From positions 372,001 to 436,000 of the forward strand of contig NZ_JRHH01000003.1 in the NCBI RefSeq assembly GCF_000757385.1: a DNA stretch of 64,000 bases, read 5' to 3'. Below the pieces are notes generated by a model, which made no database searches, was not told where the DNA came from, and worked only from the letters and a program-made list of their open reading frames with translations. Origin of the DNA: Flavobacterium aquatile LMG 4008 = ATCC 11947. GTDB lineage: Bacteria > Bacteroidota > Bacteroidia > Flavobacteriales > Flavobacteriaceae. Numbering within the stretch: position 1 is the first letter of the stretch; the number at the start of each line of letters is the position of its first letter. The position numbers and the translations under genes were made by a program. Below, one piece after another: positions 13,697 through 33,419 of the stretch.

Positions 13697-13709
13697 TTTG
13701 TGTTTTAAT

Positions 13710-14075: not shown

Positions 14076-14093
14076 TTTTAAATTATTTTAGTA

Positions 14094-14966
14094 TTAAAAA
14101 ACTCGGTACATGTTAAATCCAAAATAGATGCCACCACCTTTTGTTAAACTCCAATCTCCTTTAGTATTTGAAAATACGGCAACGTCATTCATAGGTTGAC
14201 TATTAGAGAAAATCATTTGAAAAACATGGCCACCAGTTTCAATATCAAATCCTACAGAAAGAGGATTATTATAAGGAGAATCGAAATCTTTAGAAGTATT
14301 TAATCGCGCTGCATATTCCATATTTAAACTTATTCTTTTTGATAGTTTATATCTTCCTCCAGCACCAATTAAAAATAAATCTTTTTGCTCCGTGAAGTCA
14401 TCATATAAGTTTTTGTGAACATAGATAGGAGCAACTTCAAATGAAAATGATTCAGAAAATTTTCTAGATATAATTAGTTGAGAAGTATACGCTAATCGGT
14501 TAGAAAATTTTAATCCTGGATTAACCTCTTTTTTCAATTCACTGTTGATGTCCATTGTGTTATAACCAACAATTGTAAAAGGAAATCCTTGGTCAATTTG
14601 GTTTACCAATTTATATTTTGCAGCCAATTCATAGGTTTTATTATTTCTATGTCTCGATGCACCAATTGACAACCAGTTAGTTGCGCCATAAATTGCACCA
14701 ATTTTTGTAATGGCTTCGTCTAGTCCAAAGAAGTTTTCAAATCCGTTGGTTACATCACCAAATCGATGTGAAATTAGGATATACCATTCTCCTTTTACAG
14801 GCAACTTTGTTGATTGCATGTTGCAAATTTGTAATGCTTTAAAAGCGTACGGAGTAATTGTCTTTTCTTTGGTTTTTAATGAATCTAGTTCATTTAGTAA
14901 ATCATCTTGTGCGATTGCAGTTCCAGTAAATAGAAATACTAAAGCAATAGTTAAAAAGTTTTTCAT
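14094..14966 (-). CDS. DUF5777-family beta-barrel protein (copy A)
   Basis: A 290-residue protein with signal peptide (TGTAIAQDD). The sequence is rich in alternating beta strands and ends in an aromatic residue pattern (FGFNMYRVF) typical of outer-membrane barrels. Family landmarks are STKLPVKGEWYILISHRFG, ENFFGLDEA and ETGGHVFQMIFSNSQ. The paralogue at 35207 shares all of them. Function of DUF5777 is not established; it recurs with small cytochromes and YceI in this window. It sits between the OB-fold and CxxCH genes with gaps of 5 and 18 bp. Confidence 0.88.
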   Translation of the reverse strand: MKNFLTIALVFLFTGTAIAQDDLLNELDSLKTKEKTITPYAFKALQICNMQSTKLPVKGEWYILISHRFGDVTNGFENFFGLDEAITKIGAIYGATNWLSIGASRHRNNKTYELAAKYKLVNQIDQGFPFTIVGYNTMDINSELKKEVNPGLKFSNRLAYTSQLIISRKFSESFSFEVAPIYVHKNLYDDFTEQKDLFLIGAGGRYKLSKRISLNMEYAARLNTSKDFDSPYNNPLSVGFDIETGGHVFQMIFSNSQPMNDVAVFSNTKGDWSLTKGGGIYFGFNMYRVF

Positions 14967-14971
14967 GTGTT

Positions 14972-15364
14972 TTATTTATTAATTATTTGGCATTGGTCAA
15001 GTTTTACTTCTCCCATTAAATCATCAAATCCAACAATTCTACCTTTGATAGTTACTTCTTTGTTTTGTTTTATTGTTGCATTACTTTCTTTTAAATTGCA
15101 GATTACGGTGTTATCAAGAATGACTTCTAATTCAGAGATGTTTGTAATTTTACCTGAAATTGCGACCGCTTTTTCTAAATACTTTTTATTAGATATTTCA
15201 GTGGTATTGATAAATTCGTTAGTTATATTTTTTGCTGTTGTTGTAAAAACGGTCTCTTCAGAAGATACATCTCTTGCTCCGCCATGCATGACATAATTGT
15301 AGCCGAGAATACCTATAAAAAATAGTATAAAAAGGCCGATTGATAGTTTTTTAAATTTACTCAT
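14972..15364 (-). CDS. Membrane-anchored OB-fold (tRNA_anti-like) protein (copy A)
   Basis: A 130-residue protein with one N-terminal membrane helix (about residues 7-26) followed by a soluble domain. The segment KYLEKAVAISGKITNI ... VTIKGRIVGFDDLMGEVKLDQCQI has the spacing of the tRNA_anti-like OB fold. The RDVSSEE motif after the helix is shared exactly with the copy at 33420. Nucleic-acid binding is unlikely for an anchored periplasmic-facing domain, so the ligand is unknown. It lies in the probable operon starting at 16334. Confidence 0.8.
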   Translation of the reverse strand: MSKFKKLSIGLFILFFIGILGYNYVMHGGARDVSSEETVFTTTAKNITNEFINTTEISNKKYLEKAVAISGKITNISELEVILDNTVICNLKESNATIKQNKEVTIKGRIVGFDDLMGEVKLDQCQIINK

Positions 15365-15443: not shown

Positions 15444-16334
15444 TTATTTATCAATAATCACTTCATAGTTAGAAATTCCATAATCGTTTTCTAAACTAAT
15501 AACATAATTTCCATTACTTAAATTAGTAAGGTCGAGTATTTTTATTGTTTGATAAGAAGGCGTAATATTGTTTTCAGAATAAACAATTTGTCCTAGAAGA
15601 TTAAAGACTTTTATGTTTTTTAAATCATTTTTCAGACTTAAATTAAAAATTCCAGAAGATGGAACAGGATAAATTACAACAGATGGTTCTTGGAATTGAA
15701 CATCTGCAACAGAAAGCGCGGATGGAACCCAATCTATAACCACACCATTTATATAAGTGTCGCCAGTTGGTGTTAAATGCACACTTGCTGGACCTTTTGT
15801 AAAAGTAAAACCAATTAATTCGTTATGATTATTAGACCCAGAATCTACCCAAGAGCTTTCAACCCAGACTTTATAAGTTCCGTCTGCGACTGTTGTTCCA
15901 TTAATTGTTCCAACTACATTTTTTCCATCCCAAGTTATTGTTTTAGTTCCAAATGCGGTTGGTCTAATTGAACCTGCAGGAATCGTTCCTGCTGTAGTTG
16001 CTGTTGCCGTGCAAGTCGCTCCAGAAATAGCATCGGTAGTATTGCAAGTTGCTGTAGTCGCATTTGTTAACGCACCACCAGATTTTACTGCCCACGTTGG
16101 TAAATGGTCTTTAGTTGAATTCGATACAAACCTGTATTTGGTTTTTATAAAAGTTCCAGTGCCATTCTCAATCCAAACGGCTAAAACGTTTTTAATTCCT
16201 GCATTTGGTGCAGGACTTGTAGGTTGCGGTTGATTGTAAGTAAAGGTTAAAGTTCCCGGAGTTTGTGCATAAGCACTAAATGTAACTAAAAAAAGTGCTG
16301 TACAATTGATAGCTTTTAACAAAGTTTTTTTCAT
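15444..16334 (-). CDS. DUF2271-like secreted protein with T9SS type A sorting domain
   Basis: A 296-residue protein with signal peptide ending at AYAQ. Residues about 25-190 resemble DUF2271 (LAVWIENGTGTFIKTKY ... TITWDGKNV ... GTYKVWVESSW), a family often linked with flavin-transferase or PepSY-type redox modules. Residues about 220-296 (VIYPVPSSGIFNLSL ... GNYVISLENDYG ... IIDK) are a T9SS type A domain. It heads the envelope gene set running down to 13148, and a candidate ECF-sigma promoter lies 75 nt upstream. Confidence 0.82.
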   Translation of the reverse strand: MKKTLLKAINCTALFLVTFSAYAQTPGTLTFTYNQPQPTSPAPNAGIKNVLAVWIENGTGTFIKTKYRFVSNSTKDHLPTWAVKSGGALTNATTATCNTTDAISGATCTATATTAGTIPAGSIRPTAFGTKTITWDGKNVVGTINGTTVADGTYKVWVESSWVDSGSNNHNELIGFTFTKGPASVHLTPTGDTYINGVVIDWVPSALSVADVQFQEPSVVIYPVPSSGIFNLSLKNDLKNIKVFNLLGQIVYSENNITPSYQTIKILDLTNLSNGNYVISLENDYGISNYEVIIDK

Positions 16335-16408: not shown

Positions 16409-16437
16409 AAAAACATTTCCATTAATTTTAACCCTAC
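16409..16437 (-). promoter_or_regulatory. Candidate ECF-sigma promoter (GTAGGGT-N15-TGTTTTT)
   Basis: On the minus strand GTAGGGT (16431-16437) is followed after 15 nt by TGTTTTT (16409-16415), 75 nt before the ATG at 16334. The same two boxes with identical spacing occur at 21616, 22213 and 29439. Confidence 0.72.
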
Positions 16438-16485
16438 TAAGTATTGCTTAAGATTGTATTAAGATCGTTTAACGACACATTTCAT

Positions 16486-19032
16486 TTAAAAATTGTACCT
16501 TAAAAAAGCATTAAAAGTTCTTTCTAAGGCAAAAGTATTTACTTGTTCAATAGAATTCGTATTGGTATTTACGCGGTAATTTTGATTGATTATAATTTTA
16601 GAATCCAATAAATTTTGGACAGAGAATCCGAAAAGTAAATTCGATTTTTCACTGATTGAAATTTTATAACTACTGGAGAAATTCATTTGAAAATAGTCTT
16701 CAAGATTAGTAGAATTTGGTTCTTGATAGCCAATTTGGGGATTGTCTGGCGTGTTAAATATTGGTAATGAACTTGAGGGAAGCGTGTTGGGTTTTCCGGT
16801 AAACCATCTTGAACCAAGAGCTATTTTTAGTTTTTGATAATCATAAATGACTGCCATTCCTACATTGTGATTGATTTCATAATTATTCGGAAAAGCATTA
16901 GTTGAAAAACTTTCGAAATTGTAATTGTTATTCGTGTAAGTGTAACTTAGCCACGCTGTGAAATTGTAAAACTGCTTTTGAATTAAAAATTCTGAACCTA
17001 GAACGGTATATTTTCCGTTAATTCTTGAAAATTCCAATTGGTTTTGAAATCCTTGACTCATGCTGGTAATTCCGTTTACCGATTTGTAAAAATTGTCTAA
17101 AGTTAGTAGCCAATTGTTCTTTTTAAAAGTAAATCCAACCGAAACCTGATTGCTTTTTACTACAGGAATTGTTTCGTTATTTGCTAAAATCCAACGACGT
17201 TTTTCTACACCAAGAAAATCTTGCTGCAAATCGACAATTTGTGAAGTTACTTGGCTTTTTCTCTCGGCTAAAATTTCTGCAAAAAACGATTTAGAAAATG
17301 AATAATTAAATTGTAATCTTGGTTCAAATAAATATTCTTCGAGTTGCGTAATGTAGGTTTGACGTAAACCAACAGCAGTTCTAAGTTTTTTATTTTGAGA
17401 GGAATACTGTAGTTCTCCAATTAACGAATGACTGTGTAAAACATCTTTAATTCTTCTTGAAAAAATGGGGCTGTTGATTCGGTCAAAATTTCTAATTCCG
17501 ATTTCGTTGAATTGATAACCGTTGTTGAATTTCCAATTTGTAGCGATTTGATGACTATTTTTAATTTTAATTCCAGTATCTAAAATAGTATTTTCTTGAT
17601 TCAAAATTTGATTACTTTGTATCGATTCATTTTCAGATTCAATAGTGTAATACGAAGTATAAACATTTATTTCTGATTGGTTTTTCTTATTCCAATTCAC
17701 TTTTAAAGTAACATTTCCTCCAAGAGTATGTTGTTCTAAAGAACTATTTTTAGCAATTAAAATAGCGTTTTCTTGCTTGGATTCATTAAACTCTAAAAGA
17801 TTATTAATTGAAATTAAATCGATGTTGAGATCCATTTTCGAATTAATTTTTTGGTCAAATTGTAATGAGAAATCGTAAAAATAAAAATCTTCATTGTTCA
17901 TGTAATTAATTACTTCATCGTTGGTAAGATTGGTTACGGCTGTATTTTGAAAAATTCTATTGTAATAGTTTTTGTAAGTTGGCGAATTGATAAAATCGGT
18001 ATGTGAACGGCGCGCACTTAATTCGAGATTTGAATTTTGTGAAATTTTAAATTTGGCGTTAACATCGGCACTAATCATATTTATTCCAATAGAACCGTTG
18101 GTTTCCTCAGATGTATTTTTGTGAGTAGAAATATCGACAACGCTTGAAACGCTTTCACCATAAAAAGGAGAGCTTCCGTTTTTAGTAATTTTAATGGTAT
18201 GCGCCAAATTCGGATTTAAAGCAGATATCAATCCGAAGAAATGTCCTGTTTGAAAAAGTCGAATTCCGTTCCATAAAAACAAATTTTGATCATGTGTTCC
18301 GCCACGAACGTTGAGGTTCGAGATGGTTTCGTCTGTACTTGCAATTCCGGGAATTTGTTTTAAAGTTTCAAATACATCTGGCTCAGTTAAGCCAGGAAGA
18401 AGTCCGAATTTTTTAGGTTTTATTTCAAAAGTTCCGTCTAGTTTTTTTGTAATTCCCTTAGTTAAATAGGTTTGAGTTACAACTTCAGATAATTCATTTA
18501 AAACAGGTTTTAATGTTAAAGTCGGACACTTATTTGTGTATAATTCAATAGATTGTATTGTGAGTTTTTCGTAATTTACGTGAGAAAACTCTATTGGATT
18601 TATTGATTTTATGTTTAATTCAAAATATCCATTTTCATTACTCGATGTTGAATAGTTTGTTCCAATTACTTTTATGTTTGCATATGCAATTGGTTGATTA
18701 GAAAAAACGTCTACAATAAAGCCGCATAAGGGTTTGTCAAGGTCTTTATTGTTAACAACAGCTATATAACTTTTAGATGTAAATTGAAATTTTAAGCGCG
18801 TTTTATCTGAAATATAATCGAGTTTTTCGTTTAAAGTTAGAGCGTTTTTTGGAGGAATAATTTTGAAAATAGCAATTTCTTCATCTATATAATTAAAATT
18901 CACACCATGTTGTTGCTCTATTTTTTCAAGAATTTTTATCAATAAAATGCTATCGCTTCTATCTTGAGCATTTGCACTCAAAACACAAACAAAGCACATC
19001 AACAAAGACGCAAAATACTTTTTTATTTTCAC
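16486..19032 (-). CDS. TonB-dependent receptor with STN signalling domain
   Basis: An 848-residue outer-membrane receptor. After the signal peptide (SANAQD) comes an STN/secretin-like N-terminal domain (about residues 28-95, ILLIKILEKIEQQHGVNF), then a carboxypeptidase-regulatory-like beta sandwich (about 100-180), the plug (about 220-320, KQIPGIASTDETISNLNVRGG) and a 22-strand barrel ending in FNAFLRYNF. The STN domain marks it as a transducer that signals through FecR to the ECF sigma. It overlaps fecR by 4 bp. The substrate is unknown; no SusD or siderophore gene is adjacent. Confidence 0.92.
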   Translation of the reverse strand: MKIKKYFASLLMCFVCVLSANAQDRSDSILLIKILEKIEQQHGVNFNYIDEEIAIFKIIPPKNALTLNEKLDYISDKTRLKFQFTSKSYIAVVNNKDLDKPLCGFIVDVFSNQPIAYANIKVIGTNYSTSSNENGYFELNIKSINPIEFSHVNYEKLTIQSIELYTNKCPTLTLKPVLNELSEVVTQTYLTKGITKKLDGTFEIKPKKFGLLPGLTEPDVFETLKQIPGIASTDETISNLNVRGGTHDQNLFLWNGIRLFQTGHFFGLISALNPNLAHTIKITKNGSSPFYGESVSSVVDISTHKNTSEETNGSIGINMISADVNAKFKISQNSNLELSARRSHTDFINSPTYKNYYNRIFQNTAVTNLTNDEVINYMNNEDFYFYDFSLQFDQKINSKMDLNIDLISINNLLEFNESKQENAILIAKNSSLEQHTLGGNVTLKVNWNKKNQSEINVYTSYYTIESENESIQSNQILNQENTILDTGIKIKNSHQIATNWKFNNGYQFNEIGIRNFDRINSPIFSRRIKDVLHSHSLIGELQYSSQNKKLRTAVGLRQTYITQLEEYLFEPRLQFNYSFSKSFFAEILAERKSQVTSQIVDLQQDFLGVEKRRWILANNETIPVVKSNQVSVGFTFKKNNWLLTLDNFYKSVNGITSMSQGFQNQLEFSRINGKYTVLGSEFLIQKQFYNFTAWLSYTYTNNNYNFESFSTNAFPNNYEINHNVGMAVIYDYQKLKIALGSRWFTGKPNTLPSSSLPIFNTPDNPQIGYQEPNSTNLEDYFQMNFSSSYKISISEKSNLLFGFSVQNLLDSKIIINQNYRVNTNTNSIEQVNTFALERTFNAFLRYNF

Positions 19033-19934
19033 TTTATTTCTTCAATAACATAGTTTGAATTAGTAGATTTTGAATACTTTAAGTGATAGATTGAGGTGAT
19101 TGTTTTTAATGCTATATCAATATTGTTCGTCGGAATTTTACCCGTAAACAATTGATCTGATTTGATGTTTTTAGCATCAATTGTAACATTATATTGTCGT
19201 TGAATTTCTTCTAAAACTGCCGTTAATTTTTCTTTTTCGAATGATAATTCTTTAGAAAGCCATACTGGTTTCGCATCGGAAATAGTCTTGCTTACAATTT
19301 TTTCATTGCCTTCAAATGAAACCATTTGACCTGGAGTTAAAATTACTTCTTGAGTGTTGAAGTTTACTTTTACTTTACCTTCGAAACAAACTACGTCAAA
19401 TCGATCTTTTCTTGCTTTAACATTAAATTGTGTGCCAAGGACACTTACCTTTCCAAGGTTGGTGTTGACTTCAAACTTTTTTCCTTTGGCAACTTTAAAG
19501 TAGGCTTCGCCATTTAATTTCAACTTTCGATTACTATCCCAGTTCCATTTTTTAAAATCAATTTGCGAACCAGAGTTTAATATTACTTCAGAATTATCTG
19601 GTAATAAGAAGGTGGTTTGTTTTCCATTTTCTGCCAATTCTGTTGTAGGAGTGAAAGTATTAAAAGCAAAAAATAATCCAAATCCTATTACTAAAACAGC
19701 AGCAATTCTCATGAACCAATTTGGTTTTAAAGTAACAACTTTTGGAGTTTGTTTTTTGGTTTCTAATACCGTGTTCAATATTTTATTTTCATCAAATTTA
19801 GGTGTTTCTAATTGTGATGAATATAATTTTATTTTTTCATATAATGGGAAGTCAGGATCAGCTTGAAATTCTTTCAATTCTGCATCAGTCATTTCTCCAT
19901 CAAGCCATTTTGCTAATTTATAATTTTCTTCCAT
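19029..19934 (-). CDS. FecR-family anti-sigma regulator
   Basis: A 301-residue protein. The short N-terminal cytoplasmic segment (KLAKWLDGEMTDAELKEF) would hold the sigma factor. A membrane helix lies at about residues 83-101 (IAAVLVIGFGLFFAFNTF). The periplasmic FecR domain follows (LPDNSEVILNSGSQI, GEAYFKVAKGKKFEV, VLGTQFNVKA), and the C-terminal DUF4974-like part (LEEIQRQYNV) would contact the STN domain of the receptor encoded next. The 4-bp overlap with the receptor gene implies translational coupling. Unusually, a T9SS protein gene separates it from the sigma gene. Confidence 0.93.
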   Translation of the reverse strand: MEENYKLAKWLDGEMTDAELKEFQADPDFPLYEKIKLYSSQLETPKFDENKILNTVLETKKQTPKVVTLKPNWFMRIAAVLVIGFGLFFAFNTFTPTTELAENGKQTTFLLPDNSEVILNSGSQIDFKKWNWDSNRKLKLNGEAYFKVAKGKKFEVNTNLGKVSVLGTQFNVKARKDRFDVVCFEGKVKVNFNTQEVILTPGQMVSFEGNEKIVSKTISDAKPVWLSKELSFEKEKLTAVLEEIQRQYNVTIDAKNIKSDQLFTGKIPTNNIDIALKTITSIYHLKYSKSTNSNYVIEEIK

Positions 19935-19989
19935 TTTTTTTCTTCCTTATTCGAAGGTATCGAATTGTTATTTAATTTACAAATTCAGC

Positions 19990-21570
19990 TTATTTTTTTA
20001 TAAGCTTTATTGTTTTTTGATTATTGTTTGAAACCAACCTACAAATGTACATTCCGCTATTTACGTTTGATAAATCAAGTTCATTATTAATTTTATTAAG
20101 TTTCTTTTCTAATATTAATTTTCCAGAGACATCATAAATTGATAGATTTGAATTATTTTCATTTTCGTAGAGTTGGATATTTACTTTATCTGAAAATGGA
20201 TTTGGATAAACTTTTGTATTCTTAAAAATGTCCTCTTGATTTGATAATACTACAGGATTGTAGTGGTATACAGTCATATTATGCTCACTTATTGCAAAAA
20301 GACTTTCGTCGTTAGCAATTTTGCAATATATTCCGCTTCCACCATAGATATTTGGTGTACTTATCCATTGTTGGACTCCATTGTTACTATATTTTAAAAC
20401 TACCATTTGAACTGTTGACATAGAAGTACTGGCTGTTGGTCCGCCTTTACCAATCACTATTGGTTCTCCAAGTGTATTAGTTGTTATAAAATAGGGAATT
20501 TCATCAACACTACTAACGGCGTCGTATACTGTATTCCATAATAAATTTCCATCGGTATCAATTTGTAATGTTCTCCAATTGGGTTCAAAACCATATGAAG
20601 CCGAAATAATGCTGACTTTATTTCCTCCGAGTGAAAATCGTTGAGGAAAATCGTTTCCTCCAAAATCGTAATTTTGTTGCCAAAGTAATGTTCCAGTTGA
20701 ACTTACTTTTTGAACTAAAATATCAATATTATTTGTTGGAACTGACATTGAATGATTGGTTCTTCCTAAAATATAAATATTTCCCGAATCGTCAACTTCT
20801 AAATCTTCACCAAAACCACTAAAAAAGCCAGGATTGATATTGTTAACATGAATGAATCCTGCGGAAAAAACTAGATTTCCCAAAGTATCCCAAACTACTA
20901 ATGGAGTTCCATGAACAGTATCTCCTGATCCGGTCATGTATATTTTGTCATTTTTTAATCGCATTGATCCAAAACCATAAGCACTATTTGTAGCATTACT
21001 TGTTTGAAATACTATTGTACCACTTGGATTTAGTTTTATCAAAGTTAAACCATATGGTGTTAATTGAGATGTTCCAATATATAAATTTCCATCAGCATCA
21101 ACTTCACTTCTTAAGGTGAAACTTGGAGAAATTCCAACAGTTGATGCTGTAACTGGAATAGTATTTTTCCACAGTAAAACTCCTGAAGGATTATATTTTA
21201 AAACTACAATTGCATTTGCATATTCTTGAATCCCAGACGATGTAGTACTAAATGTATATCTTTTTCCAACAACGTATACGTTTCCATTTGAATCACAATT
21301 GCTCCAAATAGGTTTTTGATAATTGCTAGCAATTCCTGACGCATCTGAAACTTCCCATAAAAAAGTCCCTGAAGGAGAATACTTTCGGGTATAAATGTTG
21401 CTATGAAGCCAATGACCTGTCACAAATGCATTATTAGAATTATCAATAGCCATCATTACAGCCGATTTATTATATTCTGATGCGTCTTGCATCCAATCAA
21501 AAGTATATTGAGCAGAAATTATCTGACTTGTAAATAGCGATAAAACAATAATAAGTAAAGTTTTTTTCAT
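19990..21570 (-). CDS. Secreted beta-propeller (SBBP-like) protein with T9SS type A domain
   Basis: A 526-residue protein with signal peptide (SQIISAQ). Residues about 35-430 contain repeated units of the form D-G-N-x-Y-V-x-G followed by hydrophobic strands ending in LLW (SNGNVYVVGKRY, ADGNLYIGTSQL, DSGNIYILGRTN), as in SBBP/WD-like propellers. The last 80 residues (VYPNPFSDKVNIQL ... GMYICRLVSNN ... KLIKK) are the T9SS sorting domain. It lies between the ECF sigma and fecR genes, so it is probably part of the same signalling unit, perhaps as a surface binding partner of the receptor. Confidence 0.85.
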   Translation of the reverse strand: MKKTLLIIVLSLFTSQIISAQYTFDWMQDASEYNKSAVMMAIDNSNNAFVTGHWLHSNIYTRKYSPSGTFLWEVSDASGIASNYQKPIWSNCDSNGNVYVVGKRYTFSTTSSGIQEYANAIVVLKYNPSGVLLWKNTIPVTASTVGISPSFTLRSEVDADGNLYIGTSQLTPYGLTLIKLNPSGTIVFQTSNATNSAYGFGSMRLKNDKIYMTGSGDTVHGTPLVVWDTLGNLVFSAGFIHVNNINPGFFSGFGEDLEVDDSGNIYILGRTNHSMSVPTNNIDILVQKVSSTGTLLWQQNYDFGGNDFPQRFSLGGNKVSIISASYGFEPNWRTLQIDTDGNLLWNTVYDAVSSVDEIPYFITTNTLGEPIVIGKGGPTASTSMSTVQMVVLKYSNNGVQQWISTPNIYGGSGIYCKIANDESLFAISEHNMTVYHYNPVVLSNQEDIFKNTKVYPNPFSDKVNIQLYENENNSNLSIYDVSGKLILEKKLNKINNELDLSNVNSGMYICRLVSNNNQKTIKLIKK

Positions 21571-21615
21571 GATTGAGCTAATTAAGTTAGGAACTAATTT
21601 GTTTGTTGCTAAGTT

Positions 21616-21644
21616 TATAACAAATCAAAATATAATTACCCTAC
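21616..21644 (-). promoter_or_regulatory. Candidate ECF-sigma promoter (GTAGGGT-N15-TGTTATA)
   Basis: GTAGGGT (21638-21644) and TGTTATA (21616-21622) on the minus strand, 15 nt apart, 46 nt before the ATG at 21570. The GTAGGGT box overlaps the TAG stop codon of the sigma gene, giving the propeller/FecR/TonB genes a promoter of their own. Confidence 0.72.
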
Positions 21645-22147
21645 TTAAAGTTTTCAAATTCTTTTCGTAATTCAACTAGAGCTAAATGAATACGTTTTTC
21701 TACAGCTTTTACACTAATATTTAGTTCCTCGGCAATTTGAGCATATTTTTTTCCGTCTATTCGGTGCATTAAAAAAGCGACACGCTGCGTTTCATTCAAT
21801 CGATCAATGGCATTTAATAATTTAGATTTAAATTGTTCTTCCTCTAATAAAAATTCTGGATTTTCATTGGATCTGTCATTTAGAGAATTATTCTTTTGAT
21901 AATTTACAACCACTTTTTGATGGGCAATTACATTTAGAGATGTATTATTTGCAATAGTGTAAATATAAGATTTGGCTTTTTCTAGAGGAACATCAGCACA
22001 ATTTTGCCATAGTTTAATGAAAGCTTCTTGTGTTGCATCTTCTGCCTGATCTTGGTTGCCAAATTTATAAAGCAGAAAATTTCGTAACTGTTTTACATGG
22101 TTTTTAAAGAATTCTGAAAAAACATTTTCTTGGCACGTATCACTCAT
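21641..22147 (-). CDS. ECF RNA polymerase sigma factor
   Basis: A 168-residue sigma-70 family protein with only regions 2 and 4. Region 2 is at about residues 12-80 (FLLYKFGNQDQAEDATQEAFIKLW). Region 4 is at about 110-165 (LNETQRVAFLMHRIDGKKYAQIAEELNISVKAVEKRI), with the HTH at the end. It belongs to the FecI-like group that works with FecR and a signalling TonB receptor, both encoded downstream. Its own upstream region has no GTAGGGT box in its orientation, so autoregulation through that motif is not indicated. Confidence 0.95.
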   Translation of the reverse strand: MSDTCQENVFSEFFKNHVKQLRNFLLYKFGNQDQAEDATQEAFIKLWQNCADVPLEKAKSYIYTIANNTSLNVIAHQKVVVNYQKNNSLNDRSNENPEFLLEEEQFKSKLLNAIDRLNETQRVAFLMHRIDGKKYAQIAEELNISVKAVEKRIHLALVELRKEFENFK

Positions 22148-22212
22148 TTTATTTCTATGGAATTTAATGATGTATAAAGTAGCGTAAATATAATTATTTT
22201 TTTTATTTTTCG

Positions 22213-22241
22213 GTAGGGTTTTATTTAAGTCAATTGTTTTT
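22213..22241 (+). promoter_or_regulatory. Candidate ECF-sigma promoter (GTAGGGT-N15-TGTTTTT)
   Basis: GTAGGGT (22213-22219), 15 nt, TGTTTTT (22235-22241) on the plus strand, 19 nt before the ATG at 22261. It points toward the acidic lipoprotein pair, divergent from the sigma gene. Confidence 0.72.
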
Positions 22242-22260
22242 AATTAAATACGTGCATATT

Positions 22261-23298
22261 ATGAAAGCGAGTCAATTTATTTTTCTAGGTTTTTTATCCA
22301 TTTTATTTTTCTCTTGCCAAAAAGAAGAAAACGAAGTGATACAAGATCCAACACAAAATCTAAATAAAACTTCACCATTAGTAAATTTATTATCGAGAGT
22401 TTCTCAAAATGCTACTTCGCAGGATAATGTTTTAGATAATTCTAGTTGTTTTAGTGTTCAATTGCCAGTAACAGTTATTGTTAATGGTGATAATGTAGTT
22501 GTTCAAACCGAAGCTGATTATCAAACGGTTCAAGATGCCATCGACGCTTTTTCTGATGATGATGATATTGTGAATTTTATTTATCCAATAACTATTCAGT
22601 ATCAAAATTTTTCTACTCAAGTTATAAATAATTCTGATGCTTTAGATGATGTTTTGGACGACTGTGAGGACAACGATGACGATTTTGACGAAATTGATTG
22701 TATTACTTTAAATTACCCTGTTGTTTTAAATATTTATGATAGTAATAATCAATTAGCTAGTACATTGACAATAACTAATGATGTTCAGTTTTATAATTTT
22801 ATTGAGAATTTAGATGATAACGAATTTATTGCAATCAATTATCCAATTTCTATTGTTGATTCCAACGGAAATAATATTGTCATTACTAGCAACAGTCAGT
22901 TAGAAGACATTATCGAAGAATCTATCGATGATTGCGATGATAATTCTGGTGGTGGCGGAAGTGCTGATTTCTCTGATGTTATTACAAATGGAACTTGGTA
23001 TGTTTCTTATTTTTTCGAAGGCGATGATAATGAAACAAGCGATTATGTCGGTTATAATTTTACCTTTTCTGCAACCGGAACGATTACTATTGTTAAAGCT
23101 TCAACAACAACCAATGGAAGTTGGAGTAATTATATTGACAGTGGTGATGATATATTAAGCTTAAATTTTGATGATTCCAATTTAGATGAATTAGAAGAAG
23201 ATTGGGAAATTACAGAATATTCTTCAACAGTAATAAAACTCAAACATATAAGTGGAGGAGATGGTGAAACCGATTATTTATATTTTACAAAAAACTAA
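22261..23298 (+). CDS. Acidic repeat lipoprotein with C-terminal lipocalin-like domain
   Basis: The start at 22261 gives 345 residues with a clean lipoprotein signal (FFSCQKEE); the frame from 22234 adds nine residues and runs through the candidate promoter leader. The N-terminal half holds two related units: CFSVQLPVTVIVNGD ... LDDVLDDCED, and CITLNYPVVLNIYDS ... LEDIIEESIDDCDD. Each begins with Cys-hydrophobic-P-V and ends in an acidic DDC cluster. The last about 110 residues (NGTWYVSYFFEGDDNETSDYVGYNF ... GGDGETDYLYFTKN) are paralogous to the next gene. The many Asp residues suggest divalent metal binding, which is inference. Confidence 0.75.
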   Translation: MKASQFIFLGFLSILFFSCQKEENEVIQDPTQNLNKTSPLVNLLSRVSQNATSQDNVLDNSSCFSVQLPVTVIVNGDNVVVQTEADYQTVQDAIDAFSDDDDIVNFIYPITIQYQNFSTQVINNSDALDDVLDDCEDNDDDFDEIDCITLNYPVVLNIYDSNNQLASTLTITNDVQFYNFIENLDDNEFIAINYPISIVDSNGNNIVITSNSQLEDIIEESIDDCDDNSGGGGSADFSDVITNGTWYVSYFFEGDDNETSDYVGYNFTFSATGTITIVKASTTTNGSWSNYIDSGDDILSLNFDDSNLDELEEDWEITEYSSTVIKLKHISGGDGETDYLYFTKN

Positions 23299-23324
23299 AA
23301 ACCAACAATAAATAAATTAATATT

Positions 23325-23840
23325 ATGAACACAAAAAAACTAAAAAAAAGTACCAATTATTTATTAGAAAAAGGAAAAAAAATCGCTATTATTCCTTTTT
23401 TATCGGTCGTATTTTTTATGAATATGGCATCGACTTGTAGTAGTGATGATGATAACAATAACTCTTCTTCAGATCCAACTCCAGTGGTTAATACTGTAAC
23501 TTCTGGAACATGGCGAGTAACCTATTATTTCGATACTGATTCTGATGAAACTAGTGATTTTGCAGGATACAATTTCACTTTTGGTTCGTCTAATGTATTA
23601 ACGGCAACCAATGGAACAAATACTTACACAGGTTCATGGTCGGTTACAAATGATGATAGTAGCGATGATGATAGTCCAAGTAGTGATTTAGATTTTAATA
23701 TTTTATTTTCATCACCAGCTAATTTTCAAGATTTATCAGATGATTGGGATATTGTTTCAAGAACTTCAACTAAAATAGAATTAATTGATGTAAGCGGAGG
23801 AAACGGTGGAACAGATTATCTAACTTTTGAAAAGAATTAA
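23325..23840 (+). CDS. Acidic lipocalin-like lipoprotein, paralogue of upstream gene
   Basis: A 171-residue lipoprotein with a long basic N-terminus and lipobox ASTCSSDDD near residue 38. The domain SGTWRVTYYF ... DETSDFAGYNFTF ... GGNGGTDYLTFEKN closely tracks the C-terminal domain of the gene 26 bp upstream, so this is a tandem duplication minus the repeat region. It is probably co-transcribed from the GTAGGGT promoter at 22213 and ends at the terminator at 23862. Confidence 0.78.
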   Translation: MNTKKLKKSTNYLLEKGKKIAIIPFLSVVFFMNMASTCSSDDDNNNSSSDPTPVVNTVTSGTWRVTYYFDTDSDETSDFAGYNFTFGSSNVLTATNGTNTYTGSWSVTNDDSSDDDSPSSDLDFNILFSSPANFQDLSDDWDIVSRTSTKIELIDVSGGNGGTDYLTFEKN

Positions 23841-23861
23841 ATTAACCTACATATGCATGCT

Positions 23862-23892
23862 AAAAACCATTCAAATTTTGAATGGTTTTTTT
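23862..23892. terminator. Terminator after acidic lipoprotein pair
   Basis: AAAAACCATTCAAA pairs with TTTGAATGGTTTTT and is followed by Ts. It may serve the convergent 23973 gene as well. Confidence 0.85.
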
Positions 23893-23972
23893 ATAAAATA
23901 AATCCGTCAAGTTTTTAAACAAGACGAATTCATTCAACCTAAACAAATAAACAAAATAATTTAATTTTGTAG

Positions 23973-24317
23973 TTAATTATAAATGATTTTATAATTAATT
24001 TCTCCTGATTTTAAAAGTTGTTTTAGTGTTTTAAAATCTAATAAAATTCGCAATTCATTCAATTCATTTCTATTCAATAAAATAATGAAGTTGGATTGCA
24101 AAGTCGGAATTGGAATTTTCTTTTCATAAATAGAATTCTCATATTCTTTTTCCCAATAGTTTGTGTCAATTTTATCCAAAAAACTAATAAAACTAAACAT
24201 TTCTGAAGGATCAAAATTGAATGTCAAATTGTTGAATGATACGTTGTAAAGATTCCTTTTCGGACAAAAAAGCAAAAATCCATTGCTCGTTCTGTTTATG
24301 ATTTTAAAATGGCACAT
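23973..24317 (-). CDS. DUF6686-like small protein in heme locus
   Basis: A 114-residue cytoplasmic protein without signal peptide. The pattern ISNG-like NRTSNGFLLFCPKRNLYNVSFNNL ... F..FI.FLDKID ... IPTLQSNFIILLNRNELNELR resembles the DUF6686 family seen beside heme-uptake genes in Bacteroidota. It lies 13 bp downstream of the DUF6607 gene, so the two form one unit. Function unknown. Family call is from memory of the pattern and moderate. Confidence 0.6.
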   Translation of the reverse strand: MCHFKIINRTSNGFLLFCPKRNLYNVSFNNLTFNFDPSEMFSFISFLDKIDTNYWEKEYENSIYEKKIPIPTLQSNFIILLNRNELNELRILLDFKTLKQLLKSGEINYKIIYN

Positions 24318-24330
24318 AATTATAATGGTT

Positions 24331-25245
24331 TTATTTTACTATAAAACGGTCAATAATTGCATCAACTTCTGCTTGTAACGCATCTGGTTTTAAATCGAAT
24401 AAATAAGAATAAAGTGGTTTTCCATCCACTAATTTTTGTAATGATAAATCGTTGTCTTTTTGGTAAACCAATTCCCATTTGTTTCTAACTTTTAACCAAA
24501 GCTCATTATTTTTTTTCCAATAATTTTTAGCAACTTGACATTTGCTATCATCTACTTTCGTGTAAACATCAATTCCTTTTTCTTGTGCTAATAACACATC
24601 GTTTCCTTTGTCATCTCTAACAATCTTGTCGTTATCTTGCTCGTGAATCCAGCCAAAGTTGGTAATTTCATGAATGTTTCTTCTTTTAAGAACATTATAA
24701 TCGTTACGAATGGTATGCTCTCTTCTTGGTAAAGGTGCGTCGGTAGTGTTTTTCCAATACGTACTTCCATCAACCATTACCCAACTTGCGGTTCCTTCAT
24801 ATCTCGGACTATCATCAACTTGATATACTTTTTGTGTCCATTGACCTTTTACGTTTTTAGCTGATAATTTTTCAAATTTCCAAGTTCTTTCTTTAAAGAA
24901 ATCGTAGAATTCAGTGTTTTCATACAACCAATCTTGACGCCAGTGTTTTACAATTGCATCGTCAGTTTTTCCAACAATTAGTAAATGTTGAAGCACAATT
25001 TTATTCGATTTGTCTTCAACTAATTCTACCCATTCTAATCCGGAATCGTGTTTGGTTTTAGATGGTTTGTAGCCAATTGAGTCTTTAGAATACTCGAAAG
25101 TTTCAGCAAAATTGAATTTTACTTCATAACAGCCACACATCGATTTAATGGCTTTAATGTCTTGTTGTTTTTTTAAATCTTGACTTTTTCCAGATAGGCT
25201 AGCCAACAAAAATGTAGTTAATAATAGAATGGATTTGATTCTCAT
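24331..25245 (-). CDS. DUF6607-family exported protein
   Basis: A 304-residue protein with signal peptide (ASLSGKSQD). The motif KSMCGCYEVKFNFAETF after the signal and the Trp-rich stretches (HWRQDWLYE, GTASWVMVDGSTYW, TNFGWIHEQDN) fit DUF6607, a family that accompanies hemin receptors in Bacteroidota. CGC and several His/Met residues could touch metal or heme, but that is speculative. It is divergent from the TonB receptor gene with a shared 113-bp control region containing palindromes. Confidence 0.8.
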   Translation of the reverse strand: MRIKSILLLTTFLLASLSGKSQDLKKQQDIKAIKSMCGCYEVKFNFAETFEYSKDSIGYKPSKTKHDSGLEWVELVEDKSNKIVLQHLLIVGKTDDAIVKHWRQDWLYENTEFYDFFKERTWKFEKLSAKNVKGQWTQKVYQVDDSPRYEGTASWVMVDGSTYWKNTTDAPLPRREHTIRNDYNVLKRRNIHEITNFGWIHEQDNDKIVRDDKGNDVLLAQEKGIDVYTKVDDSKCQVAKNYWKKNNELWLKVRNKWELVYQKDNDLSLQKLVDGKPLYSYLFDLKPDALQAEVDAIIDRFIVK

Positions 25246-25277
25246 AATGATATAATTTAGTTAAATAATAATTTCGA

Positions 25278-25285
25278 CAAAAATA
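25278..25285 (-). promoter_or_regulatory. -7 promoter element of DUF6607 gene
   Basis: On the minus strand TATTTTTG fits TAnnTTTG, 33 nt before the ATG at 25245. Confidence 0.55.
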
Positions 25286-25290
25286 TTAAA

Positions 25291-25309
25291 TTTATTTAGA
25301 ATAAATAAA
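25291..25309. promoter_or_regulatory. Palindrome between divergent heme-locus promoters (candidate operator)
   Basis: TTTATTTAGAATAAATAAA contains TTTATT-TAG-AATAAA and sits in the -33 regions of both divergent -7 elements, where one repressor could control both directions. An iron-responsive Fur-type regulator is the natural guess for a heme locus. Confidence 0.45.
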
Positions 25310-25318
25310 AATAACATA

Positions 25319-25326
25319 TATATTTG
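25319..25326 (+). promoter_or_regulatory. -7 promoter element of heme TonB receptor gene
   Basis: TATATTTG matches TAnnTTTG, 33 nt before the ATG at 25359. Confidence 0.65.
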
Positions 25327-25339
25327 CAAAAAAAAATTA

Positions 25340-25356
25340 TTAAGAACAATTCTAAA
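25340..25356. promoter_or_regulatory. Second palindrome just upstream of the TonB receptor start
   Basis: TTAAGAACAATTCTAAA is a near-palindrome (TTTAGAA-N3-TTCTTAA on the other strand). It lies between the expected transcription start and the start codon, where a bound repressor would block the receptor gene. It shares the TTTAGAA half-site with the palindrome at 25291. Confidence 0.45.
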
Positions 25357-25358
25357 CA

Positions 25359-27449
25359 ATGAGAAAATCATTTTATATATTGATCGGTTTATCTGTATTT
25401 TATTCTGTAACTGCACAAAAAAAAGTTACAGATTCTATAAAGGTAAATGAGTTGGACGAAGTTGTAATTACTGGGCAATTTGAACCTCAATCTATAAAGA
25501 AATCAGTTTTTAATGTGCGTGTAATTACTGCTAAGGATATCCAAAATTTAGCGGCTAATAATTTATCAGATGTATTAAATCAATACTTAAATATTACGGT
25601 TAGACCAAGTGGCAATGATGGACGTTCTACAGTTTCATTATTCGGACTTGATGCAAGATATTTTAAAATAATGATTGATAATGTTCCTTTAGTGAGCGAA
25701 GCTGGTTTAGGAAATAATACCGATCTGTCTCAAATAAATCTAAATGATGTAGAACAAATAGAAATTGTTGAAGGATCGATGGGTGTAACTCATGGAGCCA
25801 ATGCAGTAAGTGGAATTTTGAATATAATCACCAAAAAATCATCAAAAGATAAATGGAATATTTCTGCAACTGCACAAGAGGAAACAGTAGGAAAAGAGTT
25901 TGAACTTTTTGATAAAGGTCGTCATATTCAATCGTTAAAGGTTTCTAATTCTATAAACAAAAAATGGTTTGCAAGTGTTAGCGCAAATCGAAATGATTTT
26001 CAAGGTTTTTTAGACGGAAAACAAGGAAAAGATTATATTGAAAATGATGGGTTGCGTGGTTATCGTTGGCTTCCAAAAGAGCAACTTAACGGTACTGCTT
26101 TACTTGCTTACAGTAAAAATCAGTTTCGAATTTTCTACAAATTTGAATATTTAGACGAGAATATCGATTTCTATAACAGCACAGTTCAGTCTGGTTTTAA
26201 TACAGAGTTGGGTTCTTACAGATATGCAGATGATAGAAGATTTTTAAACAACAGGTATTTTCATAATTTGAATTCTACTGGTAAAATCTTAAATAAATTG
26301 AACTATAATGTTTCGGTTTCTCATCAAAAGCAAGAACGAATTATAGAAGATTTTAGATATTATTTGTTAACACAAAATGAAGCAAATAGTATTAAAGTTA
26401 AAGACCAATCAATGGAAACATTTTATTCAACAGGAACAATTAGTAATTTTTTCTCTGATAAAACCGTTGCATTGCAGTTAGGATATGAAATTGTAAACAA
26501 TAGAGGGTTTTCATTACCAGTTCATGAAACGTTAGAGAATTACGACTTTTTTGTTTCATCAGAAATCAATCCAGCCGAACGATTTTCTATTCGACCAGGA
26601 ATGCGATTTTCGGCTCAATCAAAATTTAAAGATCAATATGCATCGTCGTTAGGTTTACGCTATTTATTTAAAAATGATTTTGAACTTCGTGGTTCATATG
26701 GAAACTCATTTAGAACACCAACTTTTGAAGAGTTATATTATTTTTTTGTTAATGATAGTCATTTCTATATTGGAAACGAAAACTTAATTCCAGAAACAAG
26801 CACATCGTATGAAATTAGCATAAAAAAAGCAAAATCATTTGATTCAGGATTGCAAATTTCAACAAGTTTTGCAGGAAGTTTTCTTGATATAGATGATAAA
26901 ATTGATATGGCATTAATCAGAATTAATCCAAGTACATTAATTAGAGAATTTCAATATATCAACATTAGTAAATATCAAATGTGGAATTTTTCTACAATGA
27001 ATCAATTCAAAAAAGGAAATTGGAACTTAAATTTTGGCGCAGCATTGGTTGGAATTTCTCAAAAAATAGAAAATCAAATTTTTGCTTCAAACGAAAAATT
27101 TCTGTATTCATTTAATATAAACACCAATATTTCTTATTTACTTCCAAAATGGCAAACTACATTTTCTGCTTACTATAAATATAACGGAAAAACACAACAA
27201 TTTGTGGAAGGAAGTTCAGAATATATTATTTCAACAATTGATGATAGCAATTGGCTTGATGTTTCCACCAGAAAATCATTTTTCAAAAAACAACTTGAAG
27301 CAACCATCGGAGCAAGAAATATTTTGGATATAACCAACATCAATCAAACCAGAGCAAATGATGGCGCAGCACACGGAACATCGTCTAATGTAATGCTTGC
27401 TTATGGTCGTTCTTATTTTTTAAAACTAACGTATAATCTTAATTTTTAA
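25359..27449 (+). CDS. TonB-dependent receptor, probable heme/hemoprotein receptor
   Basis: A 696-residue outer-membrane receptor with signal peptide (SVTAQK). It lacks the regulatory-like N-terminal domain. The TonB box is close to the start (LDEVVITGQF), the plug follows (about residues 45-155, LSDVLNQYLNITVRPSGNDGRSTVSLFG ... GAVSGILNIITKKS), and the barrel shows the FRTPTFEELYY motif of heme and siderophore receptors. It is followed 12 bp later by an HmuY-like lipoprotein gene, which makes heme the most likely substrate. Expression is probably iron-controlled through the palindromes upstream. Confidence 0.88.
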   Translation: MRKSFYILIGLSVFYSVTAQKKVTDSIKVNELDEVVITGQFEPQSIKKSVFNVRVITAKDIQNLAANNLSDVLNQYLNITVRPSGNDGRSTVSLFGLDARYFKIMIDNVPLVSEAGLGNNTDLSQINLNDVEQIEIVEGSMGVTHGANAVSGILNIITKKSSKDKWNISATAQEETVGKEFELFDKGRHIQSLKVSNSINKKWFASVSANRNDFQGFLDGKQGKDYIENDGLRGYRWLPKEQLNGTALLAYSKNQFRIFYKFEYLDENIDFYNSTVQSGFNTELGSYRYADDRRFLNNRYFHNLNSTGKILNKLNYNVSVSHQKQERIIEDFRYYLLTQNEANSIKVKDQSMETFYSTGTISNFFSDKTVALQLGYEIVNNRGFSLPVHETLENYDFFVSSEINPAERFSIRPGMRFSAQSKFKDQYASSLGLRYLFKNDFELRGSYGNSFRTPTFEELYYFFVNDSHFYIGNENLIPETSTSYEISIKKAKSFDSGLQISTSFAGSFLDIDDKIDMALIRINPSTLIREFQYINISKYQMWNFSTMNQFKKGNWNLNFGAALVGISQKIENQIFASNEKFLYSFNINTNISYLLPKWQTTFSAYYKYNGKTQQFVEGSSEYIISTIDDSNWLDVSTRKSFFKKQLEATIGARNILDITNINQTRANDGAAHGTSSNVMLAYGRSYFLKLTYNLNF

Positions 27450-27461
27450 TATATAAATATC

Positions 27462-28547
27462 ATGAAAAAACAATTTTTAACTTTAGCTATTGCATTAGTA
27501 ACACTTGCTTCTTGTTCAAGCGATGATGATGGACCAACAATTGAAGTTCCTTCTGTTGGTGCAATTATTCAACCAACTGTTGGTGGGCCAAATCAGCCAA
27601 ACCAAGTTTATTTAGATTTAAGTTCAGAAGCATCTTCAGCTGTTAATAGAGCATCTTGGGATTTTGGATTTTCTACCGATACCGATTTTAGAGTTGTAAT
27701 CAATGGTTCTTTGAAGATGGCAGTTAAAAAACTTGAAACATCAGATATTACTTTAACTCAAGTATCAGATGATGCTGTTGCTGTTGGCGCAGGAACTAAT
27801 CCTTCAAGCAATGGTTATTGCGATAATCCTACAGGAGTTTTGGCTGGTTCTGGAGCTGGATTCGGAACTGCAATTGCCGAAGTTTCTGTCAATGATGCCG
27901 ATAATAAAGTATATTTAGTAAATCTTGGTTTTGCCGTTTCAACAACAACACCAACTGTTGGTTCTGTTAGTGTTGATGGAGAAGCTCGCGGATGGAAAAA
28001 AGTTAGAATTTTACGAAATGGAAATGGTTATAAAATTCAATATGCCGATTTAGCATCAACAACTTTTCAAGAGGAAACGATTTCTAAAAACGATGACTTC
28101 AACTTTATATTTTTTAGTTTAACATCAGGAACTACTATTGAGGTTGAACCTAAAAAAGACAAATGGGATTTGAATTTTACAACTTTCACCAACTATGTAA
28201 ATTTTGGAACTGAAGTAACTTATGGATATTCTGATTTTATCGTTTCAAATATGAAAGGTGGAACAAAAGTATATCAAGTTTTAGTTGCAGATGGTGGAAG
28301 TTATGAAAATTTCACGTTGAATAATGTTGTTGAAAATAACTTCATCGTTTCAGAAACAGATCAAAGAATTATTGGTTCAAACTGGAGAAATGGTGGTGGA
28401 CCAGGAACTTTGCCAAGTGTTAGAACTGATCGTTTTTATGTAATTAAAGATGTAGTAGGGAACTATTATAAAATTAGATTTCTTGCAATGACAAACGATG
28501 CAGGTGTGAGAGGAAATCCAACAATTGAATATTCAATTTTGAATTAA
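27462..28547 (+). CDS. HmuY-family heme-binding lipoprotein
   Basis: A 361-residue lipoprotein (lipobox LASCSSDDD). Two HmuY-type segments are visible: ASWDFGFSTDTDFRVVINGS at about residues 66-85 and KWDLNFTTFTNYVNFGT at about 231-247. Each has the W-D-x-x-F strand and glycine of the HmuY fold. HmuY proteins bind heme at the cell surface and pass it to the partner TonB receptor, here encoded upstream in the same operon. The length suggests an elongated or duplicated form. Heme ligands cannot be assigned with certainty. Confidence 0.85.
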   Translation: MKKQFLTLAIALVTLASCSSDDDGPTIEVPSVGAIIQPTVGGPNQPNQVYLDLSSEASSAVNRASWDFGFSTDTDFRVVINGSLKMAVKKLETSDITLTQVSDDAVAVGAGTNPSSNGYCDNPTGVLAGSGAGFGTAIAEVSVNDADNKVYLVNLGFAVSTTTPTVGSVSVDGEARGWKKVRILRNGNGYKIQYADLASTTFQEETISKNDDFNFIFFSLTSGTTIEVEPKKDKWDLNFTTFTNYVNFGTEVTYGYSDFIVSNMKGGTKVYQVLVADGGSYENFTLNNVVENNFIVSETDQRIIGSNWRNGGGPGTLPSVRTDRFYVIKDVVGNYYKIRFLAMTNDAGVRGNPTIEYSILN

Positions 28548-28576
28548 TAGCGAGTTAATTAATTACAAATTATCAC

Positions 28577-28617
28577 AAAAAAAGGTCCAAATGGTATTTC
28601 ATTTGGACCTTTTTAAA
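28577..28617. terminator. Bidirectional terminator after HmuY-family gene
   Basis: A perfect 13-bp stem (AAAGGTCCAAATG / CATTTGGACCTTT) flanked by an A run and a T run, serving the convergent genes at 28547 and 28631. Confidence 0.92.
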
Positions 28618-28630
28618 TTTAAAACGTTAT

Positions 28631-29410
28631 TTATTTTACTGATTTAATTCTGTCGTCATCATCGCTATCGTCATCGTCGTCATTTCCGTCATCATCATTA
28701 TCATCATACAAATCGGTTGCATCTTTAATTTTATCTTTAATTAAGTTAGCTAATCCGTTGTTTCCATCGGTATCAATTGGGCTAATTTCAATAAGACCAT
28801 CATTATTTCCATCAGTCGCCGAAGTTAAATCGACAGAAGCTAAAATTACATCCAAATTAAAATCAAAAACTATTGTAGCACTATTGTTTGTAATAGTTAG
28901 ATTTTGATTAGCATCATCGTAGTCAATTTCGAATTCTTCACTAATGTCATGCCAAAAAACAAAAGGGATATCATTAATTGTACCTTTTATTTGAACCGAT
29001 TTGTTAAATAAAGGACTGGCTGCATTGACACTTTTTTGCATGTTAAATTCTACTTCTTCATAAACTCCGTTTGGAATATCAAGAGTTGTAATTGTAGTAA
29101 CTCCATTCAATAAATCCAATTCAAATGGACCACTAAGTTTAAATTCATCGTCATCGCCATAAAAACCATCGCCGTAGTTTTCATCGTCATCATCATAAAA
29201 ATCGTCATCCAATTCAAATTCAATGTTTTTCAAATTGATTTTGAATTCTGTAATACTAACAGCGTTTGTTGTTTTAGCTGAAGTTCCAGAATAAGTAGCT
29301 TTTGCTTGAATTTTTAAATTATCAGATGACCGATTGTCATCGGTACTGCAAGAAGTTGTACTGGCCAAAATCACGGCAACAAGACCAAGTAATGTTTTTC
29401 TGTTTTTCAT
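28631..29410 (-). CDS. Acidic DUF4382-like lipoprotein with Asp-rich tail
   Basis: A 259-residue lipoprotein (lipobox TTSCSTDDN). The body (ITEFKINLKNIEFEL ... FELDLLNGVTTITTLDIPNGVYEEVEFNM) follows the DUF4382 pattern. It holds a long Asp/Tyr-rich insert (DDDFYDDDDENYGDGFYG) and a C-terminal tail of almost pure Asp/Asn. Such density of carboxylates suggests calcium or other divalent metal binding. A GTAGGGT-type promoter lies 29 nt upstream, tying it to the ECF sigma gene 7 kb away. Confidence 0.75.
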   Translation of the reverse strand: MKNRKTLLGLVAVILASTTSCSTDDNRSSDNLKIQAKATYSGTSAKTTNAVSITEFKINLKNIEFELDDDFYDDDDENYGDGFYGDDDEFKLSGPFELDLLNGVTTITTLDIPNGVYEEVEFNMQKSVNAASPLFNKSVQIKGTINDIPFVFWHDISEEFEIDYDDANQNLTITNNSATIVFDFNLDVILASVDLTSATDGNNDGLIEISPIDTDGNNGLANLIKDKIKDATDLYDDNDDDGNDDDDDSDDDDRIKSVK

Positions 29411-29438
29411 AATAGTATTTTTTTTATGTTTATGAGAC

Positions 29439-29467
29439 TAAAACATTTCATATTGAAATTACCCTAC
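29439..29467 (-). promoter_or_regulatory. Candidate ECF-sigma promoter (GTAGGGT-N15-TGTTTTA)
   Basis: GTAGGGT (29461-29467) and TGTTTTA (29439-29445) on the minus strand, 15 nt apart, 29 nt before the ATG at 29410. It is the fourth copy of the motif and the only one outside the sigma locus proper. Confidence 0.72.
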
Positions 29468-32950: not shown

Positions 32951-32984
32951 GATATTTTATTTAAATTTTAAAAGTGTATTGCAA

Positions 32985-33347: not shown

Positions 33348-33419
33348 CGATTTTTATTTAAATATGATTTAAATCATTTGTTAAAATTAAAAAAAAATTA
33401 TTAGTTTTGGTTAATTATT

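Follow-up and report, generated by a model that had tools for sequence, protein, structure and literature searches.

A candidate promoter signal for a FecI/FecR-type sigma factor of Flavobacterium aquatile and its relatives

Cell-surface signalling systems of the FecI/FecR/FecA kind, like those of pseudomonads (FpvA, FoxA, and PupB/PupR), combine an extracytoplasmic function (ECF) sigma factor, a FecR-type anti-sigma factor, and a TonB-dependent receptor with an N-terminal signalling domain, and components of these three kinds lie together in a 64,000-nucleotide stretch of the Flavobacterium aquatile LMG 4008 genome (contig NZ_JRHH01000003.1, positions 372,001 to 436,000; hereafter the window, in whose coordinates positions without a contig or locus prefix are given). 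As in FecI-like ECF systems (PMC8103513; here and below, papers are cited by PMC number from excerpts of their text), the sigma gene has no ECF site of its own. Unlike in FecI systems, the sigma factor scores far under the FecI model, its proposed -35 and -10 boxes are different, the FecR gene lies inside the putative sigma-dependent operon, and the proposed targets are lipoprotein and DUF5777/YceI operons. The hallmark of ECF promoters is a -35 box with AAC and a -10 box with CGT, a requirement that later classifications dropped (PMC8103513); the usual AAC is replaced here by GTAGGGT, the extended consensus (RGTAGGGTAA and TGTTWTA) shows neither hallmark, and branches that appear to read T or C coexist within one sigma family. 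For Bacteroidetes, the EcfO motif is described as the only ECF promoter motif known, with none for Bacteroides thetaiotaomicron (PMC7366714). The start-site study of Flavobacterium psychrophilum describes motifs SM1 to SM6, the last of which is, like the motif studied here, an ECF-type promoter motif of this genus, but differs in carrying a CGT box at -10 and in driving genes of type IX secretion; the main text of that study, taken as text only since the logos are in figures, has no word beginning with GTAG (PMC9723704). SigW-1 of B. thetaiotaomicron has TGTT near -10 at two promoters, as here, although the motif derived by the authors fell short of significance and the SigW-1 regulon consists of sulfatase and SusCD genes (PMC12596196). 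We found no published report of GTAGGGT-N15-TGTTWTW in a literature search that was thin in subscription papers, so that an earlier report is possible.

Four copies of GTAGGGT-N15-TGTTWTW, all without mismatches, surround the sigma gene (21641-22147, minus strand), at 16409-16437, 21616-21644, and 29439-29467 on the minus strand and at 22213-22241 on the plus strand, exactly where an earlier reading made from the letters alone (the sequence-only reading) had placed them. We interpret GTAGGGT and TGTTWTW as probably being, respectively, the -35 and the -10 box recognized by the ECF sigma factor encoded next to them, acting in FecI/FecR/FecA-like cell-surface signalling (our rough probability for this is 0.87). 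The complete motif was absent from 100 dinucleotide-preserving shuffles of the window. GTAGGGT by itself was observed 4 times vs 1.6 expected, and 6 of the 100 shuffles reached at least four copies, so that, as had been supposed, the heptamer alone is unremarkable; since every one of these heptamers is a paired one and the window holds no further GTAGGGT, the pair at fixed spacing is the carrier of the signal. The interval between the final base of TGTTWTW and the ATG is 74 (16409-16437), 45 (21616-21644), 19 (22213-22241), and 28 nt (29439-29467), in keeping with the 19-75 nt proposed, and the -10 half, TGTTWTW, indeed does not match the housekeeping -7 box TAnnTTTG. The whole genome (3,490,856 bases in 7 contigs) contains six copies, these four within a 13-kb stretch of the window and two on contig C6, whereas the reversed pattern has 0 copies in the whole 3.49 Mb. 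The regulon had been called local, which is right within this genome (4 of 6 copies) and wrong for the signal itself, which recurs beside related sigma genes family-wide.

Among 199 genomes of the genus, 95 have the motif and 80 an ortholog of the sigma factor (at least 55% identity). The motif is present in 76 of the 80 genomes with the ortholog vs 19 of the 119 without it (Fisher p = 2.8e-31), with mean copy numbers of 2.68 and 0.19, respectively, while the reversed pattern occurs in 27/80 and 35/119. Even the four genomes that have the ortholog and no exact copy carry, beside the sigma gene, GTAGGGT-N15-TGTT followed by TAA, TTG, TAT, or TCA.

The placement of the sites was followed in the best 80 of 281 sigma loci (sigma identity 72-83%, up to 10 kb fetched on each side). 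At least one exact copy is found in 75 of them, and the remaining five carry sites that differ by about one base at the same places. The usual first site is on the strand opposite to the sigma gene, about 66 bp upstream of the start of that gene and before a divergent lipoprotein gene; the second lies about 500 bp past the sigma start, at the 3' end of the sigma gene and before the FecR and receptor genes; and the third, in many loci, about 4055 bp past the sigma start, before the DUF5777/YceI operon. In the locus of a Flavobacterium johnsoniae genome (strain CI04, L068), for example, the sites are at -66, +500, and +4056 relative to the sigma start. When spacers of 5 to 30 were scanned over these loci, N15 gave 147 copies, N5 gave 5, and any other length 0 or 1. 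A weight matrix found 216 places scoring at least 16 vs 5 in the reversed loci, the matrix having been trained on the same loci that it scanned. Among the FecR-side sites, the distance from the end of the -10 box to the ATG is 18-21 nt in 49/53, and 18/53 overlap the end of the sigma gene; for the lipoprotein-side sites this distance is variable (median 122 nt, n = 59). These results leave almost no room for the motif having arisen by chance or as a side effect of coding sequence. The ordinary frequency of the heptamer would suit such an origin, as would the 7 of 25 distal copies, one of them in the own genome, that fall within reading frames, but it is opposed by the zero counts of the shuffles and of the reversed genome pattern, by the fixed places in relatives, and by the single spacer; chance is refuted for the four sites of the window taken together by the shuffles, the placement in relatives, and the spacer scan. 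A conserved two-part site with constant spacing could also be the operator of an ordinary transcription factor travelling with the cluster. We regard this as improbable, considering that the sites face the downstream gene and, on the FecR side, nearly always end at that narrow distance from the ATG, that the motif has an AT-rich, -10-like half and varies with the sigma branch, and that the sole regulator constantly found beside the sites is the sigma factor with its FecR.

The variation among sigma branches also bears on which sigma factor reads the motif. The F. aquatile genome encodes a second, 48% identical sigma factor (C3:344258-344785) that is accompanied by a lipoprotein, a FecR, and a receptor of its own. 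The lipoprotein gene of this second cluster, which lies outside the window (L116:7055-12003, equivalent to C3:343054-348002), is preceded by GTAGGGT-N15-TGTCTTA; paralog loci in other genomes mostly have TGTCTTA or TGTCTAA. When the genus genomes were grouped by sigma type, using identity alone, those with the first type only (67) had TGTTWTW in 65 and TGTCTTA in 4 (G043, G099, G129, and G190), those with the second type only (20) had them in 2 and 17, those with both types (13) in 11 and 3, and those with neither (99) in 17 and 0. TGTCTTA thus occurs in 20/33 genomes with a second-type sigma factor vs 4/166 others (p = 3e-15). This test used TGTCTTA only, because TGTCTWA matches include a coding-looking family (GTAGGGTCNCCNACNGG...), so that second-type genomes with TGTCTAA or TGTCCTA sites were lost and figure among the misses. 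In G129 and G190 the TGTC sites lie beside a second sigma factor of 55-56% identity. Several ECF factors of one cell might nevertheless share promoters, the neighbouring sigma factor not being the main reader: ECF regulons that overlap have been described in other cases (PMC9723704), and a sigma search of genome G000 yielded 19 first-look candidates, two of which are matches at E <= 1e-20. The near-exclusive use of TGTT in first-type-only genomes and of TGTC in second-type-only genomes speaks against this explanation, which we hold to be even less probable than an operator. Co-occurrence with the ortholog, fixed places, a single spacer length, and a -10 base that depends on the branch together make the -35/-10 reading, as originally proposed, well supported.

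The signal is not a local peculiarity but extends through the family beside related sigma genes. Relatives of the sigma factor (E <= 1e-25) occur in 178/249 genomes of a family sample and in 30/296 genomes of a phylum sample, 26 of which belong to the same genus or family. Among the 83 loci outside the genus, 80 have a FecR-like gene and 68 a related lipoprotein gene. The best 28 other-genus loci show GTAGGGT-N15-TGTT or TGTC beside the sigma gene in 23, GTAGGGA in one, and neither in four, three of which have GTAGGAA, GTAGGAG, or GTAGGAT; at L165 a re-scan found no GTAGG-type site beside the sigma gene. After identical sigma proteins and those shorter than 150 amino acids (aa) were dropped, 215 loci gave 208 distinct proteins, associated with GTAGGG+TGTT (137), GTAGGG+TGTC (30), GTAGGA+TGTT (19), no GTAGG-type site in the scanned stretches (15), or mixed or unclear sites (7); a single -10 class could not be assigned to 19 of the proteins, nor a single -35 class to 18. 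Related branches are associated with the same N15 spacer and with TGTC in place of TGTT or GTAGGA in place of GTAGGG, from which we infer that their sigma factors read these variants. In a different family of the same phylum (f23), two loci (L217 and L218, sigma factors 42-48% identical) have one GTAGGGT-N15-TGTTTTA each, at most 2 kb from the sigma gene.

In known ECF factors, the specificity loop of the sigma2 domain reads a flipped -10 base, which is T for Mycobacterium tuberculosis SigH and C for Escherichia coli RpoE (PMC6411747, PMC8103513). In SigH the loop comprises residues 72-79, of which T76 and N77 bond to the flipped T, and is followed by W81 and N88 (PMC6411747), and loop swaps in RpoE redirect -10 specificity (PMC8103513). 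The corresponding loop of the F. aquatile sigma factor is proposed, from its translation and the alignment with SigW, to be codons 52-59 (DVPLEKAK; 21971-21994, minus strand), between the FIKLWQN and SYIYTIANN helices, where TGTT and TGTC branches differ. Position 54 and the pair 56-57 sit in this loop, and E/D56-K/R57, a feature chosen post hoc after loop inspection and before comparison with SigH, is present in 140/159 TGTT proteins and 0/30 TGTC proteins. In the alignment, Y61 and N68 stand opposite the W and the N of SigW; if they correspond to W81 and N88 of SigH, positions 56 and 57 would fall on SigH 76 and 77, a correspondence drawn from these two anchors and no structural alignment. 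Column 34 tells T from C no less well than column 54 does, and three proteins (L171, L184, and L191) keep TGTT with S, N, and S at position 56, so that the E/D56-K/R57 pair is not required. For the -35 box, Y154 is found in 19/19 GTAGGA proteins, whereas GTAGGG proteins have H or S in 167/171 and Y in 1. When the loop columns are left out of the sigma trees, 3 or 4 changes are required for the T/C label and 2 for the G/A label; these residue links carry no significance because there are only 2-3 independent pairs, among which the pair feature is never reversed. At this level, below significance, differences between T and C go with differences in the loop whose counterpart in characterized ECF factors reads the flipped -10 base, as judged from aligned sequences. 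A small TGTC branch (L153, L155, and L130) has a specificity loop two residues shorter than that of TGTT-type sigma factors. A wider proposal, to which we give slightly less than even odds, is that this one sigma family with its N15 spacer would embody a modular promoter code, in which sigma4 sets GTAGGG or GTAGGA and the sigma2 loop TGTT or TGTC, both switched several times, with paralogous systems insulated by a single flipped base and the divergent ECF promoter also braking the housekeeping promoter of the sigma gene.

That housekeeping promoter is suggested by TAnnTTTG boxes upstream of the sigma gene in 51/77 loci vs 20 when reversed, at least 41 of them 45-53 nt ahead of the sigma start. 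Moreover, TAnnTTTG lies 12-19 nt from ACCCTAC, the divergent -35 box as it appears on the sigma strand, in 41/76 loci (28 at 16 nt) and in 0/76 when reversed, counts in which many loci are close relatives. The sigma gene is thus probably read by the housekeeping polymerase, from a promoter whose -33 zone falls on the divergent ECF -35 box, and, having no ECF promoter of its own, would not be autoregulated. This arrangement of the two boxes is seen in the sequence; its effect may be that an ECF polymerase at the divergent promoter hinders transcription of the sigma gene, in which case the sigma factor may even dampen its own gene.

Within the window, the sigma gene encodes a protein of 168 aa with the sigma2 and sigma4 domains only, as befits an ECF factor (Pfam Sigma70_r2, Sigma70_r4, and Sigma70_r4_2, the first and the last above cut-off). 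It scores 85.7 bits against the ECF model TIGR02937 (cut-off 42.9), falls slightly under the cut-off of the Bacteroides-type subfamily TIGR02985 (119.2 vs 126.4 bits), and reaches 62.1 bits against the FecI ortholog model NF041727, where 260 are needed. The site at 21616-21644 (GTAGGGT-N15-TGTTATA) overlaps the last codons and the stop codon of the sigma gene, at the same place as in relatives, and precedes three minus-strand genes: a secreted beta-propeller protein with a type IX sorting tail (19990-21570; Pfam Por_Secre_tail, SBBP), a FecR-type membrane anti-sigma factor with clear FecR and FecR_C matches (19029-19934), and a TonB-dependent receptor (16486-19032; Pfam Plug, CarbopepD_reg_2) whose N-terminal domain model (pLDDT, predicted local distance difference test, 82.9) resembles the signalling domains of FoxA, FpvA, FecA, and PupB with probabilities of 0.98-1.00. 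Going by the parts of the system, a ligand would bind the outer-membrane receptor, the N-terminal signalling domain would act on the membrane-bound FecR, and FecR would then free the sigma factor. Besides its own anti-sigma/receptor operon, the freed sigma factor would switch on two more operons, that of the divergent lipoproteins and that of DUF5777/YceI, as well as the genes of one or two additional exported proteins. The divergent site at 22213-22241 (GTAGGGT-N15-TGTTTTT), likewise placed as in relatives, precedes two plus-strand genes for acidic lipoproteins without Pfam match. The first (22261-23298) has a lipocalin-like part, and its model (pLDDT 84.8) is nearest to a DUF4847 protein among solved folds (E 1.1e-4) and then, more weakly, to lipocalins; the second (23325-23840) is recognized as an open frame.

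The site at 16409-16437 (GTAGGGT-N15-TGTTTTT) precedes, on the minus strand, a secreted protein with a type IX sorting tail (15444-16334; Pfam Por_Secre_tail), for which the DUF2271 label of the sequence-only reading is sub-threshold (18.7 bits, cut-off 27.3). Judging by spacing and strand, the following minus-strand genes likely share its transcript: a tRNA_anti-like gene (14972-15364), a DUF5777 barrel gene (14094-14966), a possible cytochrome c with a CxxCH motif, below cut-off (13710-14075), and a YceI gene (13148-13720). A site (matrix score at least 14) at most 3 kb upstream of the DUF5777 homolog on the same strand is present in 39 of the 40 relatives whose locus holds both this homolog and the receptor, compared with 0/40 for the reversed control. 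The site at 29439-29467 (GTAGGGT-N15-TGTTTTA) lies upstream of an acidic lipoprotein gene on the minus strand (28631-29410), an open frame without Pfam family; the resemblance to DUF4382 claimed for it is not supported by Pfam, which gives no match up to E = 5. A further group of genes, for YceI, a possible cytochrome c, and a tRNA_anti-like protein (32411-34321), partly paralogous to 13148-15364, has no motif in the window. Between regulon members, a TonB-dependent receptor adjoins an HmuY protein (Pfam; 25359-28547) without a motif copy.

Away from sigma loci, we examined 25 copies, including the two of the own genome. Most of those outside reading frames precede proteins with signal-peptide-like starts, as assessed by eye, and a few lie 269-298 nt ahead of proteins that look cytoplasmic. 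To judge from the predicted proteins, the common theme of the regulon is exported envelope proteins. In the own genome, the copy at C6:97401, 23 nt before the gene of a 462-aa secreted-looking protein, may be a real site, and one of the two C6 copies could be chance because the reversed control occurs at about 0.4 per genome. The copy at C6:50483 was considered as a regulon member and not counted, as it lies inside a 215-aa frame, presumably resembling pyridoxamine-phosphate oxidase. In three genomes (L005/L117 at C6:50483, L161, and L269), the motif occurs within a frame of one kind, 214-215 aa long, and 364-414 nt ahead of a gene for a small lipoprotein; this recurrent in-frame motif may be an intragenic promoter or reflect a coding constraint.

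Several observations weigh against assigning the motif to the sigma factor and its signalling system. It is present in 19/119 genomes without the ortholog, close to the rate of the reversed control, and kinship among the genomes makes the p values of co-occurrence too small, although positional conservation and the spacer are independent of them. Seven of the 25 distal copies lie within reading frames. The 29439 site is kept in 2/8 homologs examined, and its lipoprotein is therefore less certain as a conserved target. The fold matches of the receptor N-terminal domain have E-values of 0.016 or above. Finally, the housekeeping -7 box proposed for the window's own sigma gene, TATATTTA (22185-22192, minus strand), is imperfect and lies 20 nt from the divergent -35 box, at a place where relatives have TAnnTTTG.

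Bacteroidetes have many ECF sigma factors but few known promoters for them, and the motif would provide the target signal for one widespread branch, whose regulons could therefore be read from genomes. The natural pairs TGTT/TGTC and GGG/GGA would also offer test cases for how the ECF loop and the recognition helix choose bases, and they are candidate insulated sigma-promoter pairs for Flavobacterium genetics.

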